From positions 1 to 64,000 of the forward strand of contig JAEEOP010000041.1 in the NCBI GenBank assembly GCA_016284295.1: a DNA stretch of 64,000 nt, written 5' to 3'. Position numbers and translations under genes: made by a program. Position 1 is the stretch's first letter. Each line of letters starts with the position of its first letter. The stretch is from Methanomassiliicoccaceae archaeon (GTDB lineage: Archaea > Thermoplasmatota > Thermoplasmata > Methanomassiliicoccales > Methanomethylophilaceae). Shown here piece after piece: positions 6,561 to 50,684 of this stretch. The notes under the pieces were generated by a model that was not told the origin of the DNA, did no database searches, and saw only the letters and a list, made by a program, of their open reading frames with translations.

Positions 6561-7035
6561 ATGGAGATCGCCAGGAAAGATTATCTGGACCTCCTGTCCG
6601 CATCCAGTGATATGCCCAGGACGGTGAAGGTCCTGATAGGCATGCGCAGGACAGGCAAGACCACGATAATGAATCAGTTCATGCAGATCATTACCGATGA
6701 TACCGACGAAGGAAACATCTTCCATATAGACCTGGACCTAACCTTCGACAAGATATCCGTCGAAGAACTGAAGAACATGATGCAGCCCGTCCTTGATGCC
6801 AAAGGGATGCACTACATCTTCCTGGACGAAATCCAGAACGTGGACGAGTGGGAGAGACTTGTAGCGATGCTGGTGGCCAGGGGCGACTTGCGACATCTAC
6901 ATAACAGGCTCCAGTTCCAAGATACTCTCGTCCTAGCTGTCTACAAAGCTGTCCGGGAGGTACATCGAGATCGAGGTGTTCCCGTTCTCCTTTAAGGAGT
7001 ACATGGAGCTCCGCCCCGGCGACAGGACTGAGAGG
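6561..7035 (+). pseudogene. Broken AAA/DUF4143 ATPase (N-terminal half)
   Basis: The frame encodes MRRTGKTTIM (Walker A) and HYIFLDEIQNVDEW (Walker B), the AAA_14 module of archaeal DUF4143 ATPases. Near 6888 one extra T (GGCGACTTGCGAC) shifts the frame; in the shifted frame the expected DIYITGSSSKILSS continues, then a TAG at 6934, then LSTKLSGRYIEIEVFPFSFKEYMELR. Similarity stops near 7035, where an oppositely oriented AlbA_2 fragment begins. The gene therefore has a frameshift, an amber codon and a lost C-terminal half. Confidence 0.8.
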
Positions 7036-7505
7036 TTCTCCGGCATATCCTCGGGAAGCGAGCCCGGAGATGCGGCCTCCATGCAGTCGTCGTACATCGA
7101 TACCAGGGTGGACCCCGTCGATCTGTAATCCCTGTGGATGATGGCGTTCAGCACGATCTCCCTCACCGCCTCCATGGGGTAATCCGCAGAATCTATCCTC
7201 TGCGTGCCTGAGATCAGAGAGGACATCCTGACATTCCTGCGGATGAAGTTCATCACATCGTCATATTGCCTCAGGACCGAACCCGAGATCTCCATTCTGT
7301 CCTTAAAACCGGTACGTCCCTTGTCGCGCATCGCATGGACGCACCTGAGTGCGGTCTCGATGCGGTCCTCGAGACCTACCATACTGCCATTATCATCGAT
7401 GCCGACGAGTATCCTCCCACCTTCGGAGTTGGATAATCCAACGACGAGTTCGGATATCTTCTCGGAGTACTCCGTTACACACTCCGTCCTACCGTGTTCC
7501 GCCAT
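7030..7505 (-). pseudogene. Truncated AlbA_2/HATPase_c_4 regulator-like gene
   Basis: Reading from the ATG at 7505, the protein starts with the AlbA_2 (Schlafen-like) DNA-binding domain (VVGLSNSEGGRILVGIDDNG) and continues with the HATPase_c_4 segment AVREIVLNAIIHRDYRSTGS. It then loses similarity at PGSLPEDMPENLS, where it meets the 3' side of the broken AAA ATPase on the other strand. Full members are 400-500 aa; only about 155 aa remain. Repeated TGGTCGAAT-like motifs lie upstream of the start. Confidence 0.72.
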
Positions 7506-7522
7506 ACGGATTACAATGCGAT

Positions 7523-7592
7523 GGTCGATTCTAATCGAATTGGTCGAATGATTATCGAATAATGGCCGAATAGTTCGTAAATTGGTCGAATG
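7523..7592. repeat. Iterated TGGTCGAAT motifs upstream of the AlbA_2 remnant
   Basis: The exact 13-mer AATTGGTCGAATG occurs at 7538-7550 and 7580-7592, 42 bp apart. Related copies (ATGGTCGATT, AATGGCCGAAT, ATTATCGAATAA) lie between and beside them. The spacing and position upstream of the minus-strand start suggest an operator array. Confidence 0.5.
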
Positions 7593-7648
7593 TTCATTCA
7601 CAGGTCGCTTTATATAGTCCGCAGTCCGTTGCCTCTTCCGGGTGTCAG

Positions 7649-7948
7649 ATGAAACATATAATCCTCAGCGCAGACGGAGACAGCACTGTGTACTCCGTTC
7701 CGGACCCTGTGGCAGACGACCTGAGGAAGTACCTGGACATATTCTTCGATTGGCTTTATGACGGTCCAGGAAAGGACAGGTACTTCGACGGCTGGGGGTT
7801 CCGCTTTGACGAGAGGGCCTTCATCGAATATCTGAACACCGAGCTCTTCCCGGATGAGGTATCCGCCGAGGTGGAGAACATCGGGTTCATAAGCTTCGAA
7901 AGCCAGGTACCGCCGGAATACCGCGGATCGCCAAGTTTCAACTTCTGA
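7649..7948 (+). CDS. Hypothetical protein, 99 aa
   Basis: The protein is acidic and contains ADDLRKYLDIFFDWLYDGPGKDRYFDGWGFRFDERAFIEYLN. Codon usage is normal for the window, so it is likely expressed. TTTATATAG about 35 bp upstream is a candidate TATA element. I do not recognise the family. There is no signal peptide, membrane segment or metal motif. It sits inside the degraded 6.5-9.7 kb patch and could belong to a mobile or defence-related module. Confidence 0.6.
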   Translation: MKHIILSADGDSTVYSVPDPVADDLRKYLDIFFDWLYDGPGKDRYFDGWGFRFDERAFIEYLNTELFPDEVSAEVENIGFISFESQVPPEYRGSPSFNF

Positions 7949-7984
7949 ATCGTCACAGGATCGGAAGCAATCCTCACATCCCTT

Positions 7985-8191
7985 CTATGCAAGGATGCGC
8001 ATGTTCGTGTTGAGGGAGCCTTTCACCGCCGTGAAGTACACGCAGACCTTGTCCTTCGCGAACTCGTTGATCAACGTCGTCTTGCCTACACGACGCCTGC
8101 CGTAGACGGGAATGAACTGGAATTCATCCGATGCGTATCTCCTGTTGAGTTCCTCCAGTTCGCGGCTCCTCCCGTAGAACAAGGCAATCAC
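7985..8191 (-). pseudogene. N-terminal fragment of an archaeal AAA ATPase
   Basis: The frame reads LFYGRSRELEELNRRYASDEFQF followed by the Walker A region VYGRRRVGKTTLINEFAKDK. This is the standard opening of archaeal AAA/DUF234 ATPases, which are normally 400-480 aa. It stops after about 68 residues, before Walker B. The likely start is the GTG at 8191, or the TTG just after it. Confidence 0.72.
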
Positions 8192-8385
8192 GCCAGCACA
8201 GGAATATATAAACTGCATGATTTGCTGTTTTGCACAATAGTAATTTGTAAAACAGCTATTTGCAAACGCTTCATCGACACCTGAGATTGCTGAATCACGA
8301 TCTTTCTAGGCTCTCCGCTCCGACCTCGAAAGCATCCAAATCTGATCCGCAAATTCGATCCATCAGTAATGCGTAACAATGGCCG

Positions 8386-9696
8386 TCACGACAGCTTCTC
8401 CTCATTTACCACCCAGGTACCCTTCTTCCTTGAACCGGACCTGGCGAGATATCCTCTCATCTTGAGGCCGGAGACTATGCCGCGTGTATTGCTGACCCCG
8501 ATACCGGTGATCTGGGAGACCCTCTCTAAGGTGAAGGTGGGTTCAGACATCAACAGGGACAGGATTAGCTTCTCGTTCTTCGACAATATCTCAGCGACCT
8601 CGTCGTTCCGGAGAGAGCTGCTCCTCCTCGCATCGTATGCGATGGTGACACGGACATTCGCACCGGTCAGTCCGAACGCCTCGCGCCCGTACCTGTCGGT
8701 GATTATCGGTATCCCATGACCTGTATGCTCGCTCAACCCTAATGAACGGAATATCTGCATCAGAGCCTCGTTGACAGGCATGCTGACGCCTTGGAAGAAT
8801 TTCTCCTCGGTCTGACCGTAGGGGATCGACCCGTATGATATCACCTCTAACCTATCTTCGAATATCTGCACCGCAGGCGGAATCCCCAAAGACCAGGTGT
8901 TATGGACCACGGCATTCACCCAGGCCTCTCTGAAGCTGTCCATGTCGAATAGCTTAACATCCTGTCTGATGAAACTGCTCATGTCAACGGCGGTCTCGTT
9001 GATGCTGTTCACATAATCCTGCACACTGAGGAGCTCCCTCATGATGCTGTGACCGGAGAAGTCACTGCTGTATTTCAGTTCGTTACGGGTCCCATCCCTG
9101 AACACAGAGACTGATAACGTAAACGGATTCTGATCAGAAACAAGTAGACCGACCATGTTGAAGGACCCGTCGGAACATGCAAACCCCAGATCCTTCGCAA
9201 GCTTCGATTCATCGACTATGTGGAGCCCCTTCATCCTCATCATGTCGGTCAGCTCGCCGAATGTCAGCTCCTGATTGGAAGAAGGAGTCTCTTTCAGAAG
9301 ATCCGTGCATGATTGGAACATCTTCCTCAGCTCGATGCGGGGAATCACTTTGTTCTCCTCTCCCGATCTGATGAGATACATCCCGCTCTTGGAATACGGG
9401 CGATCGTTGCCTTCCACAAAGACAGAGATGCATCTCACGCCCGGTCTCGGTTCCAGGACCTCCAACTTTGAGATTGGCTCTGGTTCTATGGAGTTGGCTA
9501 TATCCTGGGAGATCGAACGAAGGGTGTCAGTGCCGACATCCACCCCGATAGCTGTCCCATCATCCTTCACGCCGAATATGACTGTTCCCTAGCAGTGCTT
9601 GTTCAGCATCGCGGCTAACGAGACGTAGGCATCTTGCCTCTCTGTCAGGGATCCCCTGTATTCGAGATACTCCGTTTCACGTTCGAAATCAGGCAT
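8386..9696 (-). CDS. AlbA_2/HATPase_c_4 regulator-like protein with in-frame TAG (candidate pyrrolysine)
   Basis: The annotated ORF starts at 9570, but the same frame continues upstream across one TAG (9591-9589) to an ATG at 9696: MPDFERETEYLEYRGSLTER, then AAMLNKHC-TAG-GTVIFGVKDDGTAIG. The residues before the TAG complete the first half of the AlbA_2 domain, so the gene is full length (436 codons) with amber as codon 36. Downstream are the HATPase_c_4 segment (FREAWVNAVVHNTW), GLSEHTGHGIPIITDRYG and a C-terminal winged helix (VSQITGIGVSNTRGIVSGLKMRGYLAR). Such proteins are usually regulators. Pyrrolysine insertion or a recent nonsense mutation would both explain the TAG. Confidence 0.75.
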
Positions 9697-9730
9697 CGAA
9701 TCAATGCATCCTTATGTTGTCTCATATTTT

Positions 9731-9756
9731 AATGTTAATTTAACATTAACATTTAA
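9731..9756. promoter_or_regulatory. AATGTTAA/TTAACATT operator before the AlbA_2 gene
   Basis: AATGTTAA-T-TTAACATT is a perfect 17-bp palindrome at 9731-9747. A further overlapping TTAACATT follows at 9746-9753. It lies immediately upstream of a TATA-like AAAATATGAG on the minus strand, about 30 bp from the ATG at 9696. This is a likely site for autoregulation. Confidence 0.45.
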
Positions 9757-31488: not shown

Positions 31489-33420
31489 ATGTCCACAATC
31501 AGACTGGGTAAGAACCACCTCAGATGGTGTTACGAATGCAACCTGCCTATCCTCGAGAAGGAGGAGTGCCCGGTCTGCGGAAGACCCACCGAAGAGGTCG
31601 TTCTCACGCCTCCTGGAGACTCCAGGCCCGCATTCAAGCACGACATCGACCTTCTCCGCGAGACCCTGGACCACGACTACGGCCCGGGCGCCGGAATGGC
31701 GGTCATACCGGACGACCACATCGTCATCCTCAGCAAGGCACCGTCCCTCGACAGGATGGACGAGGTCGTCATCGACGGAGCGGTCATCGCATCGTTCAGA
31801 TACGACATGGGTTCCGGCTGGAAGTTCGTCGCCAGGATGCAGGGCGCGTACCGCATCGGGAAATGCTTCTCGAAGGGATACGTCGTGTGCCACCCAGATG
31901 CGATACCTTTCATCAGAGAGAGCAAGAACCTCATGGCCCCAGGCGTCATCGATGCCGACCCTGACATAAAGTTCGGCGACGAGATCATAATCGTCACGGC
32001 CGATAGAGAGGTCATCGCCACCGGTATGGCCAAGATGACCGGGCCGGAGATGGTGGAGTCCACCAGAGGGGTCGCGGTGAGGACCAGGTGGTACAGGCCC
32101 GAGGAGTTCAGGGACCTGACTCCCAAGAAGAACTCCTGGGACGAGGCCGTCAAGGCCAACGAGGGGGTCATCAAGAGGAGGGTCGACGAGGCCGTCGGAT
32201 TCATCCACAAGACCATCGAGAAGAACAACCTCCCCGCCATCGTATCGTTCTCGGGAGGAAAAGACAGCCTCGCATCGTTGCTGCTCACCCTGGACGCAGG
32301 GCTGAAGCTCCCCATCCTCTTCGTGGACACCGGACTGGAGTTCGACGAGACCGTGGAGCACGTCCACGACGTCTGCCAGAGGCACGGATTACAACTCATC
32401 TAGGAGAAAGCACCCACTGACGCCTTCTTCGGCAACCTGGTCTACTTCGGGCCGCCTGCAAAGGATTACAGGTGGTGCTGCAAGACCAACAAGCTCGGAC
32501 CAACCGTCGGAGCGATCAACAAGAACTTCCCCGACGGAGTTCTCTCATTCATCGGACAGAGGAAGTACGAGTCCGAGCAGAGGAACTCCAAGCCCAGAGT
32601 GTGGAGGAACCCCTGGACCCCCGGACAGGTAGGGGCGTCGCCAATCCAGAACTGGTGCGCAATGCACGTCTGGATGTACATCTTCTACAAGAAGGAGCCC
32701 TACAACGTATGGTACACCAGAGGGCTGGACAGGATCGGATGCTTCCTGTGCCCCGCATCAGACCTCGCCGAGTTCGACGTCGTCGCCGGCAACAGCAAGA
32801 GGTGGGGGCAGTGGAACGAGTACCTGGAGAAGTACATGGCCGACCGCGGACTCCCCAAGGAGTGGAAGGAGTACGGCCTCTGGAGATGGAAGGATGCGCC
32901 CAAATCCATCAGGGAGGAGGTGCAGAGGGTCTCCGGCAAGGAGGTGTCCGAACTGACGAAGCAGACCAAAGCGCCGGAGAAGGGCCCGCTGACGATCAAG
33001 GTCCAGGAGGGATACTCCCCCTGCGTCGTGGGATACAGCATCGAGGCGGCCCTGTCCAGACCGATAGACCTGGAGAAGGTCAGGCCGTTCTGCCATGCGA
33101 TCACATGGATCGTCCCCGACAAGATCGAGGGCGACTTCATCGAACTCGGAGGCGCCACGCTGTACGCCGAGGGATCGATCATCAGCAAATCAGGATCGGA
33201 ACTAGATGCGAGAAGGACGATCGACCACATCTTCCAGCTGATAATGCGTGCGGAGCAGTGCGTCGGATGCGGGCTGTGCGCAGCCAGATGCAGGCCGGGG
33301 GCCCTCTACATGAAGGACGGAAAGGTCCACATCCACGAGGACGACTGCATATTCTGCAGGGAATGCTTCGGACCCTGCCCGTCGGTGAACTTCGCAAGGG
33401 GCGACGAGTTCGAGCAGTGA
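31489..33420 (+). CDS. PAPS reductase-family protein with internal TAG (candidate pyrrolysine)
   Basis: The frame from 31489 stops at TAG 32401-32403, but the same frame continues to 33420 with clear family sequence on both sides: HGLQLI-TAG-EKAPTDAFFGNLVYFGPPAKDYRWCCKTNKLGP. The whole gene has 643 sense codons, the amber being codon 305. Domains in order are an N-terminal zinc ribbon (CYECNLPILEKEECPVCG), a PUA-like region, a PP-loop (FSGGKDSLASLLL) with the PAPS-reductase cysteines CCKTNKLGP and CFLCPASD, and a C-terminal two-cluster ferredoxin domain (CVGCGLCAARCRPG, CIFCRECFGPCPS). The exact reaction is unknown; archaeal relatives are thought to act in sulfur or tRNA chemistry. A TATA (AATATATAAG) and GGGAGG precede the ATG. 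Confidence 0.82.
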
Positions 33421-48450: not shown

Positions 48451-49578
48451 ATGTATACGAAACCGAGCGGATTCATCGGCGCGGCCATGGCCGTACAGGG
48501 TATAAGGGACGCCACCGTGGTCCTCCACGGACAGAACGGATGCAGGAAGGGATTACTCGCAGGACAGTCGCTCATGGTCCGCACCGAGAGGAGGGATCCG
48601 GAATTCTACGGCAGGGACATGTCGGTCCCTTATTCGAACATACGTCCAGAGGACTACTACAGGGGCACCATCCAGAAGCTGGAGCGTGTTCTCGACCACG
48701 TTTCTGCGGAGGAATACGCACTGAGAGTCGTCATGTGCTCCCCCGGGATCTCGCTCGTCGGGGACGACTGCAGGAACCTTTCATCATCCAAGCAGGGATC
48801 TATGGTCCTGGACACCGACGACCTCCCCGAGGACTGCCCGGGAGGCTTCGACTCCTGCATCAGAAGCATAGTCAAGCACCTATCTCCCTCGCCTGGCAAG
48901 AGGATACCGAACGGTGTGAACATCATCGGGCTCAGCATCATGCACAAGGACTGGTCCAGCTATCTGCATGAGCTCTCCCATCTGCTGAAGGATGCGGGCT
49001 TCAAGGTCATCTGTGCGCTGGGCGCAGGATGCACCACGGAACAAATCGGGCAATCGGTGAACGCCTCTTACAACATAATCGTCGATCCGATGTACTCGCC
49101 GAGGACCGCGGAGCTGTACGAGTCGGAGTACGGTGTGAAGACCATCTCTATCAGCAGGTGCCCAGTAGGATACGATGCCATAGAGGAGCTCTTCCAGCAG
49201 ATCGGGAAAACCACAGGCGTCATACCCGAACATGGATTGAGCATGCTCCGCAAGAGCAAGAGAAGAGGGTACGAGGGAATCGTAGCGTCCGGCAAGAGCA
49301 TGCGTGGACGCACATTCTCCATCATCGCCGACGAATCCACGGAGAAACCTCTCAGAGCATGGCTGGAAGACTCGTTTGGAATGGTGGAATGCGATGACCA
49401 TCCGGATTACCTGTTCGCTCCCGGCGACATAGCCCGTCTGGAAGAGGCTTCCGGCGGCTGCGGGAAGGGTGTAGACATAGGATTCCCCTCATCCAGCGGC
49501 TCGGACTTCCTCAAAAGACCGCTCATGGGGCTCGAAGGATGCATGTACATACTGGATGCACTGTTCAACGATCGCTGA
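48451..49578 (+). CDS. Nitrogenase component 1-like partner subunit
   Basis: The protein is 375 aa from the ATG at 48451, one base after the fusion gene stop and preceded by GGTGATTAAG; the upstream GTG at 48442 is an alternative. Cys31 (HGQNGCRKG), Cys96 and Cys107 (MCSPGISLVGDDC) match the cysteine pattern of the fused NifD-like half, so the two can form a heterodimer around a 4Fe-4S or P-like cluster. The C-terminus GFPSSSGSDFLKRPLMGLEG is the usual NifD/E-like ending. It converges on the AAA ATPase gene with a 172-bp 3' overlap. Confidence 0.86.
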   Translation: MYTKPSGFIGAAMAVQGIRDATVVLHGQNGCRKGLLAGQSLMVRTERRDPEFYGRDMSVPYSNIRPEDYYRGTIQKLERVLDHVSAEEYALRVVMCSPGISLVGDDCRNLSSSKQGSMVLDTDDLPEDCPGGFDSCIRSIVKHLSPSPGKRIPNGVNIIGLSIMHKDWSSYLHELSHLLKDAGFKVICALGAGCTTEQIGQSVNASYNIIVDPMYSPRTAELYESEYGVKTISISRCPVGYDAIEELFQQIGKTTGVIPEHGLSMLRKSKRRGYEGIVASGKSMRGRTFSIIADESTEKPLRAWLEDSFGMVECDDHPDYLFAPGDIARLEEASGGCGKGVDIGFPSSSGSDFLKRPLMGLEGCMYILDALFNDR

Positions 49579-50684
49579 TCTCCGGCCCTGTCGAACTCGC
49601 CCTCGCGGAGCATCTTCTCCAGGTTGTGCCCCTTGCGGATGTCCTTGTCAGTGAGACTGGCGAAGGAGCTCAGTTTCCCGTCGTTCATTATGAAGCAGCA
49701 GTCTGGACGGAGGAAATCGTTAGAGATCAGACCGGTGTTATGGGTAACGAAGATGCACTGGGCCTTTATCCGCGATATGATCGCCCTTATGGCGTTCTCG
49801 GCCGTACGGTAATGGAACATGTCGTCGAAATCGTCGAAGAATATCAGCGCGTCGCGGTCGCTGCACCTGCGCAGCCAGACATACAGACGGGACAGTATCA
49901 TCACGCCTCTGGACACACCGGTCCTGAACGAGATGCTTCCCTTCTCCCTGACCACCGTCAGCCCGTCGCTGTCGTGACCCAAAGTGATGTTGACGGAACA
50001 TGTATCCCTGAGGAACCTGTTGAAGTCATCGACCAGTCCGTTGTCGACGATGTACTTCTCCACATCGTTGCCCTCCTCGATCATACCGATATGGGTGTCC
50101 TTCTTCCACATCGCCATGTAATAGAGGGAGTGATTGGCGAAGTTGAGCACGACCCCGATGGGGCTGTTGGGATCGAACGTGTGCGTTCTGGACAGATCGA
50201 GTATTATGGACTGGCCGTTGCCGAGCACCGGTTCCTCCCTGACGCCCATCGCATCCAAGTCGAAGAACGGTTTGGAGCCGTCGGTGAGGTCGTAACTGTA
50301 CACCGTGCGCCGGTCGATGGTGAGATGTTCGGACACCAGGTGTCCAGGGCCGGTCTACGCATACTCCAGGGTGATTATCGATCCCTTGTTGGCGAACTCG
50401 TAATGGAACGTCGCTCTGTCTGTGTCGGAATCCTTGTTCAGGAAGCAGTCCGGATCCCTCTGGCCGATGTCGTTGCCGAAACCGCCTACGGTGGAGACGA
50501 TGTCCACGATGGCATATCCGAAGGACGTCTTGCCTGCGCCGTTGTACCCTAGGATGATCATCTTGTCGAGGAAATCCCCTCTGACGCACTCCCTGCCATA
50601 CTTGTAGTTCTTCCTGTCCGACAGGTCTATGTGCACCCTATCGCGGAAACAGCGGTATCCCTGGACCCAGAATCTGATGAGCAT
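49407..50684 (-). CDS. AAA-type ATPase with in-frame TAG (candidate pyrrolysine)
   Basis: The ORF track shows two pieces, but both lie in one frame separated by a single TAG at 50357-50355: ITLEYA-TAG-TGPGHLVSEHLTIDRR. From the ATG at 50684 (MLIRFWVQGYRCFRDRVHIDL) the gene has 425 codons plus stop, amber as codon 110. Walker A is ILGYNGAGKTSFGYAI before the TAG, and Walker B is LIFFDDFDDMFHY after it, so the parts form one functional ATPase of the AAA_15/OLD-like RecF type. The last 55 codons overlap the nitrogenase-like gene antisense. Pyrrolysine, or a fresh nonsense mutation, would explain the TAG. Confidence 0.75.

Follow-up and report, generated by a model that had tools for sequence, protein, structure and literature searches.

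An AlbA_2-domain regulator gene with an in-frame TAG codon, probably read as pyrrolysine, in a Methanomassiliicoccaceae archaeon

The Regulator Gene and Its Domains

In the window, by which we mean the whole stretch of 64,000 nucleotides analyzed here, the minus strand carries a regulator gene that runs from an ATG at 9696 to a TGA at 8386 (8386..9696). The gene, delimited from the open frame, Pfam matches and an alignment of homologs, comprises 436 codons plus the TGA stop in a single frame, and its sole interruption is a TAG at 9591-9589 (9589..9591, minus strand), which is codon 36 and, judging from the frame and from its variable column in the alignment, the proposed pyrrolysine codon. No frameshift was found between 9696 and 8386 on this strand. 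According to the ORF list, a table-11 gene caller would pick as start the GTG at 9568..9570 (minus strand), seven codons past the TAG, from which a plain ORF of 394 codons is open. The interval 6561-8218 of the window holds truncated genes that are apparently remnants, namely an AAA_14 ATPase fragment on the plus strand and an AlbA_2 fragment and an ATPase_2 fragment on the minus strand.

The product of the read-through frame begins with an SLFN_AlbA_2 domain (PF04326, residues 7-117, 9346..9678, minus strand) that spans the TAG. Pfam detects this domain in the read-through frame only (E=4.9e-12, 46.9 bits vs. a cut-off of 25.3) and does not detect it in the short ORF from 9570. The initial annotation had proposed that the missing half of the AlbA_2 domain lies 5′ of the TAG and that the frame contains no shift, and both proposals are borne out by these results. 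A HATPase_c_4 domain (residues 273-337, 8686..8880, minus strand; E=3.7e-13, 49.7 bits vs. a cut-off of 26) is found in the short ORF and in the read-through frame alike. The C-terminal stretch (residues 378-419, 8440..8565, minus strand) resembles a winged helix-turn-helix, as judged from an HTH_IclR match of 16.5 bits, which is under the Pfam cut-off of 22, and from MarR-like fold matches that come without aligned ranges. The protein had no match in PADLOC or NCBIfam. Its coding score is modest, with 106 for 436 codons vs. 307 for a citrate synthase gene of 449 codons, and this counts against the full-length reading.

An AlphaFold2 model built from 26 sequences (mean pLDDT 86.5, pTM 0.63) has residue 36 opening a strand (36-41) that immediately follows a helix (17-34). 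The best solved relative of the regulator is DIP2311 (PDB 3lmm), with E=5e-7 by sequence and E=1.2e-23 by fold. Unlike the regulator, DIP2311 is bacterial and uses the standard code; its identity across the structural alignment is about 18%, and it is titled an uncharacterised protein. Part of the model also matches the fold of the AlbA_2-type domains of Schlafen and SAMD9 proteins (PDB 7cux, 5yd0, 7ksp, and 9o0d; Foldseek E of about 3e-5 to 1e-3), which differ from the regulator in being, by their PDB titles, animal nucleases or nucleic-acid binders. A literature search found no functional study of AlbA_2/COG2865 regulators.

Conservation on Both Sides of the TAG Codon

Of 102 genomes of the family searched for homologs, 77 gave matches, the best being 48% identical, and a search for related loci in genome contigs added one distant bacterial locus (L036), which was left unused. 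We aligned 29 homologs, made up of 28 of the 29 other loci (L026, whose match lacks the N-terminus, was omitted) and a paralog from locus L056. In all 29, the domain region is free of stops. The focal TAG is absent from all of them and is private to this genome among the genomes searched, which counts against the full-length reading. An alignment of homologs had been proposed in the initial annotation as a check, and it shows that the 35 codons before the TAG are conserved like the remainder of the gene. Identity to the nearest homolog, L007, is 16/29 upstream of the TAG, 33/64 over residues 37-100, and 155/331 over residues 101-436; by this measure the upstream 35 codons are no less similar to L007 than the remainder, and they therefore belong to the gene. 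The position occupied by the TAG is a tolerant one, aligned with arginine in nine homologs, glycine in seven, histidine in five, tyrosine and isoleucine in two each, and phenylalanine, lysine, glutamine, and alanine in one each. At this column L007 has TAC (Tyr), one base away from TAG.

In a leave-one-out comparison of 22 rows, with the truncated L020 and L029 and the distant L030-L035 omitted, the focal gene keeps 34 of the 37 columns that are invariant in the others; L007, L027, and L028 likewise keep 34, and most other rows keep more. We also considered whether TGA-interrupted homologs were a sign of widespread decay, given that one or two TGA codons are listed for several of them, and rejected the idea: in the five covered by this check (L011, L024, L031, L032, and L056), the TGA is among the final four residues of the match and is a natural stop that was overrun. 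These results confirm that the read-through frame is a real regulator gene interrupted by the TAG alone.

A Palindrome Upstream of the 9696 Start

A perfect 10+1+10 palindrome, TTAATGTTAA-A-TTAACATTAA, lies at 9729..9749 and ends 32 nt before the ATG at 9696. We propose it as an operator on the strength of a genome scan, a shuffle test and its expected frequency: even allowing up to three mismatches it occurs once genome-wide, and zero occurrences are expected in the window. The sequence TTAAAATA (9725..9732, minus strand), picked out by eye, may be a TATA box overlapping the edge of the operator.

Upstream palindromes were then scored in 20 of the 29 homologs (L020, L024, L026, and L029-L035 being omitted), using 110 nt upstream of each start, 200 mononucleotide shuffles each, and the nearest in-frame ATG, GTG, or TTG as the start. 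Ten of the 20 have a palindrome at a shuffle p ≤0.025, located 30-41 nt before the start in nine of them and 20 nt before it in one. No significant palindrome was found in the other ten, including the paralog from the same genome, and this counts against the full-length reading. Several homologs have the pattern TGGTTC..GAACTAGTTC..GAACCA in common, followed by a TTTAATA-like box. In five of the loci (L015, L016, L017, L019, and L025) long near-perfect palindromes of the form TGGTTC(C/G)GAACTAGTTCGGAACTAGTTC.GAACCA are found roughly 35-38 nt upstream of the start, and the TTTAATA-like box follows them directly; this operator layout is conserved in the regulator family. The sequence of the palindrome thus varies by subgroup while its position is constant, in line with a family of autoregulators, and this speaks for 9696 as the start. 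The position of the focal palindrome suggests autoregulation through a putative operator. The initial annotation had placed the gene start at 9696 and a putative operator in keeping with it; the perfect palindrome 32 nt upstream agrees with the latter, and the former is supported by the conserved upstream codons, by the AlbA_2 domain spanning the TAG, and by the distance of the palindrome.

TAG as a Sense Codon and the Pyrrolysine Machinery of the Genome

The genome to which the window belongs is a draft of 1,857,069 bases in 45 contigs. One of these, C36, contains a complete pyrrolysine cluster formed by mtmB with an internal TAG, tRNA-Pyl, and then PylS, PylB, PylC, and PylD. The tRNA-Pyl has the anticodon CTA (CUA), and each of the four proteins exceeds the NCBIfam cut-off of its own Pyl model. 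The best PDB match of PylS is 8ifj (E=9e-175), which we take to be PylS from the methanogenic archaeon ISO4-G1, and this match therefore places the host close to the Methanomassiliicoccales of rumen and gut. TAG is almost certainly read as pyrrolysine in this organism.

How TAG is used was examined in a sample of 459,276 bp, consisting of the window and 20 stretches of contigs C3, C7, C36, C44, and C45. These contigs are not a random choice, having been selected from earlier search matches, and one of them, C36, carries the pyl cluster, a point that counts against the full-length reading. Gene calling gave 372 ORFs with a length of 100 aa or more, of which 328 end in TGA, 33 in TAA, and 11 in TAG. 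A coding-like in-frame extension past the stop was found for 7 of the 11 TAG codons, vs. 25 of the 328 TGA and 3 of the 33 TAA codons (Fisher p=9e-6). A single Pfam domain runs across the codon in six of the seven TAG extensions vs. none of 22 TGA and none of three TAA extensions (Fisher p=8e-6); the scan took in 22 of the 25 TGA extensions, and the other three crossed the ends of the sampled pieces. The six TAG-spanning cases are MtmB, a citrate synthase, a PAPS reductase, two nitrogenase-like Oxidored_nitro proteins, and an AAA_21 protein, while the seventh extension belongs to a TPR protein in which no convincing spanning Pfam domain was found. When TAG is read through, 18 of the 391 called genes of the sample hold a TAG, a few of them doubtful, being remnants or having the TAG close to the end. 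A scan of coding scores on either side of every stop, made without regard to strand, had returned 37 TAG, 36 TGA, and 5 TAA sites, numbers that by themselves do not separate TAG from TGA; it was dropped in favor of called genes and Pfam spans because antisense frames score too. TAG is a sense codon in many genes of this genome, central enzymes included. Archaea that read all TAG codons as pyrrolysine have reportedly been described by Kivenson and colleagues in 2025.

Interpretation and Alternatives

Computation established the full frame, the homology across the TAG, the pyrrolysine cassette, and the use of TAG as sense in other genes. We consider it highly probable that the locus is one gene, probably functional, for a regulator with AlbA_2, HATPase_c_4, and winged-helix parts in a pyrrolysine-decoding archaeon of the Methanomassiliicoccales type, that UAG codon 36 specifies a pyrrolysine most likely acquired neutrally, and that the product is most likely a dimeric autorepressor. 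The initial annotation had the start, the domain half, the frame, and the palindrome right; it gave no cause for passage through the TAG, which the full pyrrolysine system of the genome supplies. In the mechanism we propose, UAG codon 36 would be translated by tRNA-Pyl charged by PylRS, yielding the full-length protein, and pyrrolysine would occupy the point where helix meets strand in the AlbA_2 domain, a tolerant place. The regulator would pair through its core, most likely binding DNA as a dimer, and its C-terminal winged helix would bind the gene's own promoter at the palindrome (9729-9749) and repress it, a state that would last until some signal acts on either the AlbA_2 or the ATPase-like domains. 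Pyrrolysine was most likely acquired neutrally here, because genes of this genome seldom end in TAG and because codon 36 is a variable position.

The main competitor is a recent pseudogene, with the TAG as a nonsense lesion in a gene destroyed like its neighbors, an outcome also raised in the initial annotation. The regulator has truncated remnants next to it, at 6.5-8.2 kb, and no other genome searched shares the TAG, so some probability must be left to decay. Nevertheless, we think it unlikely, as the 436 codons hold no second lesion, be it stop or frameshift, the conserved columns are kept as in intact homologs (34/37), the palindromic operator is intact, and TAG is not a lesion by default in a genome that reads it as sense elsewhere. 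Unlike its truncated neighbors, the regulator has its full length and has retained the conserved residues.

A one-base assembly or sequencing error, with a sense codon as the true triplet, would suit a draft in 45 contigs and a nearest homolog with TAC (Tyr) one base from TAG, but random errors should also yield TGA and TAA, and the domain-spanning cases number six for TAG vs. none for TGA or TAA, which leaves an error very improbable. We give as little credit to the idea that the real product is the shorter protein from the GTG at 9570. That 394-codon ORF is open, but the protein would lose the start of the AlbA_2 domain that all aligned homologs reaching the N-terminus have, the codons upstream of 9570 are conserved, and the distance of the operator fits 9696. 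It is conceivable, though only slightly less improbable than these last two, that the regulator itself senses how much pyrrolysine is available: at low levels of Pyl-tRNA, ribosomes would stop at codon 36, no full-length repressor would be made, and the palindrome-controlled promoter would open. If so, genome-wide recoding would be tied to a dedicated transcriptional response.

Returning to the reading of codon 36 as most likely neutral pyrrolysine, the gene has published precedents in its order, for which the pyl genes have been described (PMC3941956). One report on ‘Ca. M. alvus’ predicts 16 Pyl proteins beyond the methyltransferases, one of them listed as a transcription factor, puts the share of genes ending in TAG at only 1.6%, and holds that in-frame TAGs newly arisen there persist as stable mutations (PMC4153887). 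For ISO4-H5, 46 genes with an in-frame amber codon have been counted, including a predicted nitrogenase gene (PMC5011839). In both organisms, as in the present one, ordinary genes contain in-frame TAG, the pyl cassette is complete, and TAG seldom serves as a stop; the present gene differs from their predicted Pyl proteins in its family, that of AlbA_2 regulators. The available portions of PMC4153887 and PMC5011839, and a wider literature search, contain no report of an AlbA_2 regulator with pyrrolysine. For the order, TAG recoding has already been reported in dozens of genes, and the regulator is one more case, an ordinary instance of the rule that TAG is sense. If our reading is true, TAG is a working sense codon in the genus, and even central metabolism depends on the supply of pyrrolysine. 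Table-11 gene callers truncate or split such genes, and regulators, citrate synthases, and nitrogenase-like proteins of these methanogens risk a late start or a broken annotation.

Citrate Synthase and Other TAG-Bearing Genes

Both citrate synthase genes of the genome (L061 on C36 and L062 on C21) contain an in-frame TAG, each at a site of its own. Of 31 genomes of the genus that were compared, the present one among them, TAG occurs inside citrate synthase matches here, in the two copies, and in five others. In four of the five (G057, G061, G068, and G069) the TAG site was located, and it is exactly the same one in all four, a further site; the fifth genome is G062. The single citrate synthase match of G069 is TAG-bearing, and G057, G061, G062, and G068 each also have a TAG-free copy. 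A stop codon kept at one site of a central enzyme in four species is best read as sense. In two further species (L073 and L074), citrate synthase frames have a TAG at the same N-terminal place, upstream of the Pfam match, which may lie before the true start of the gene.

Locus L056 (7835-11184) contains two adjacent nitrogenase-like genes with one in-frame TAG each, one of them a fusion of the NifH-NifD type resembling CfbC. They are no proof of essentiality, because TAG-free nitrogenase-like genes are also present in the genome. Within the window, a plus-strand gene at 31489-33420 codes for a PUA/PAPS-reductase/ferredoxin protein (PRK13795-type) whose sole interruption is a TAG at 32401-32403, inside the PAPS reductase domain; it is likely another Pyl gene. 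Finally, the minus-strand gene at 49407-50684, with an internal TAG at 50355-50357, codes for an AAA_21 ATPase that matches PDC-M12A, a candidate defence family of PADLOC, along its entire length, and is possibly a pyrrolysine-containing candidate defence protein.
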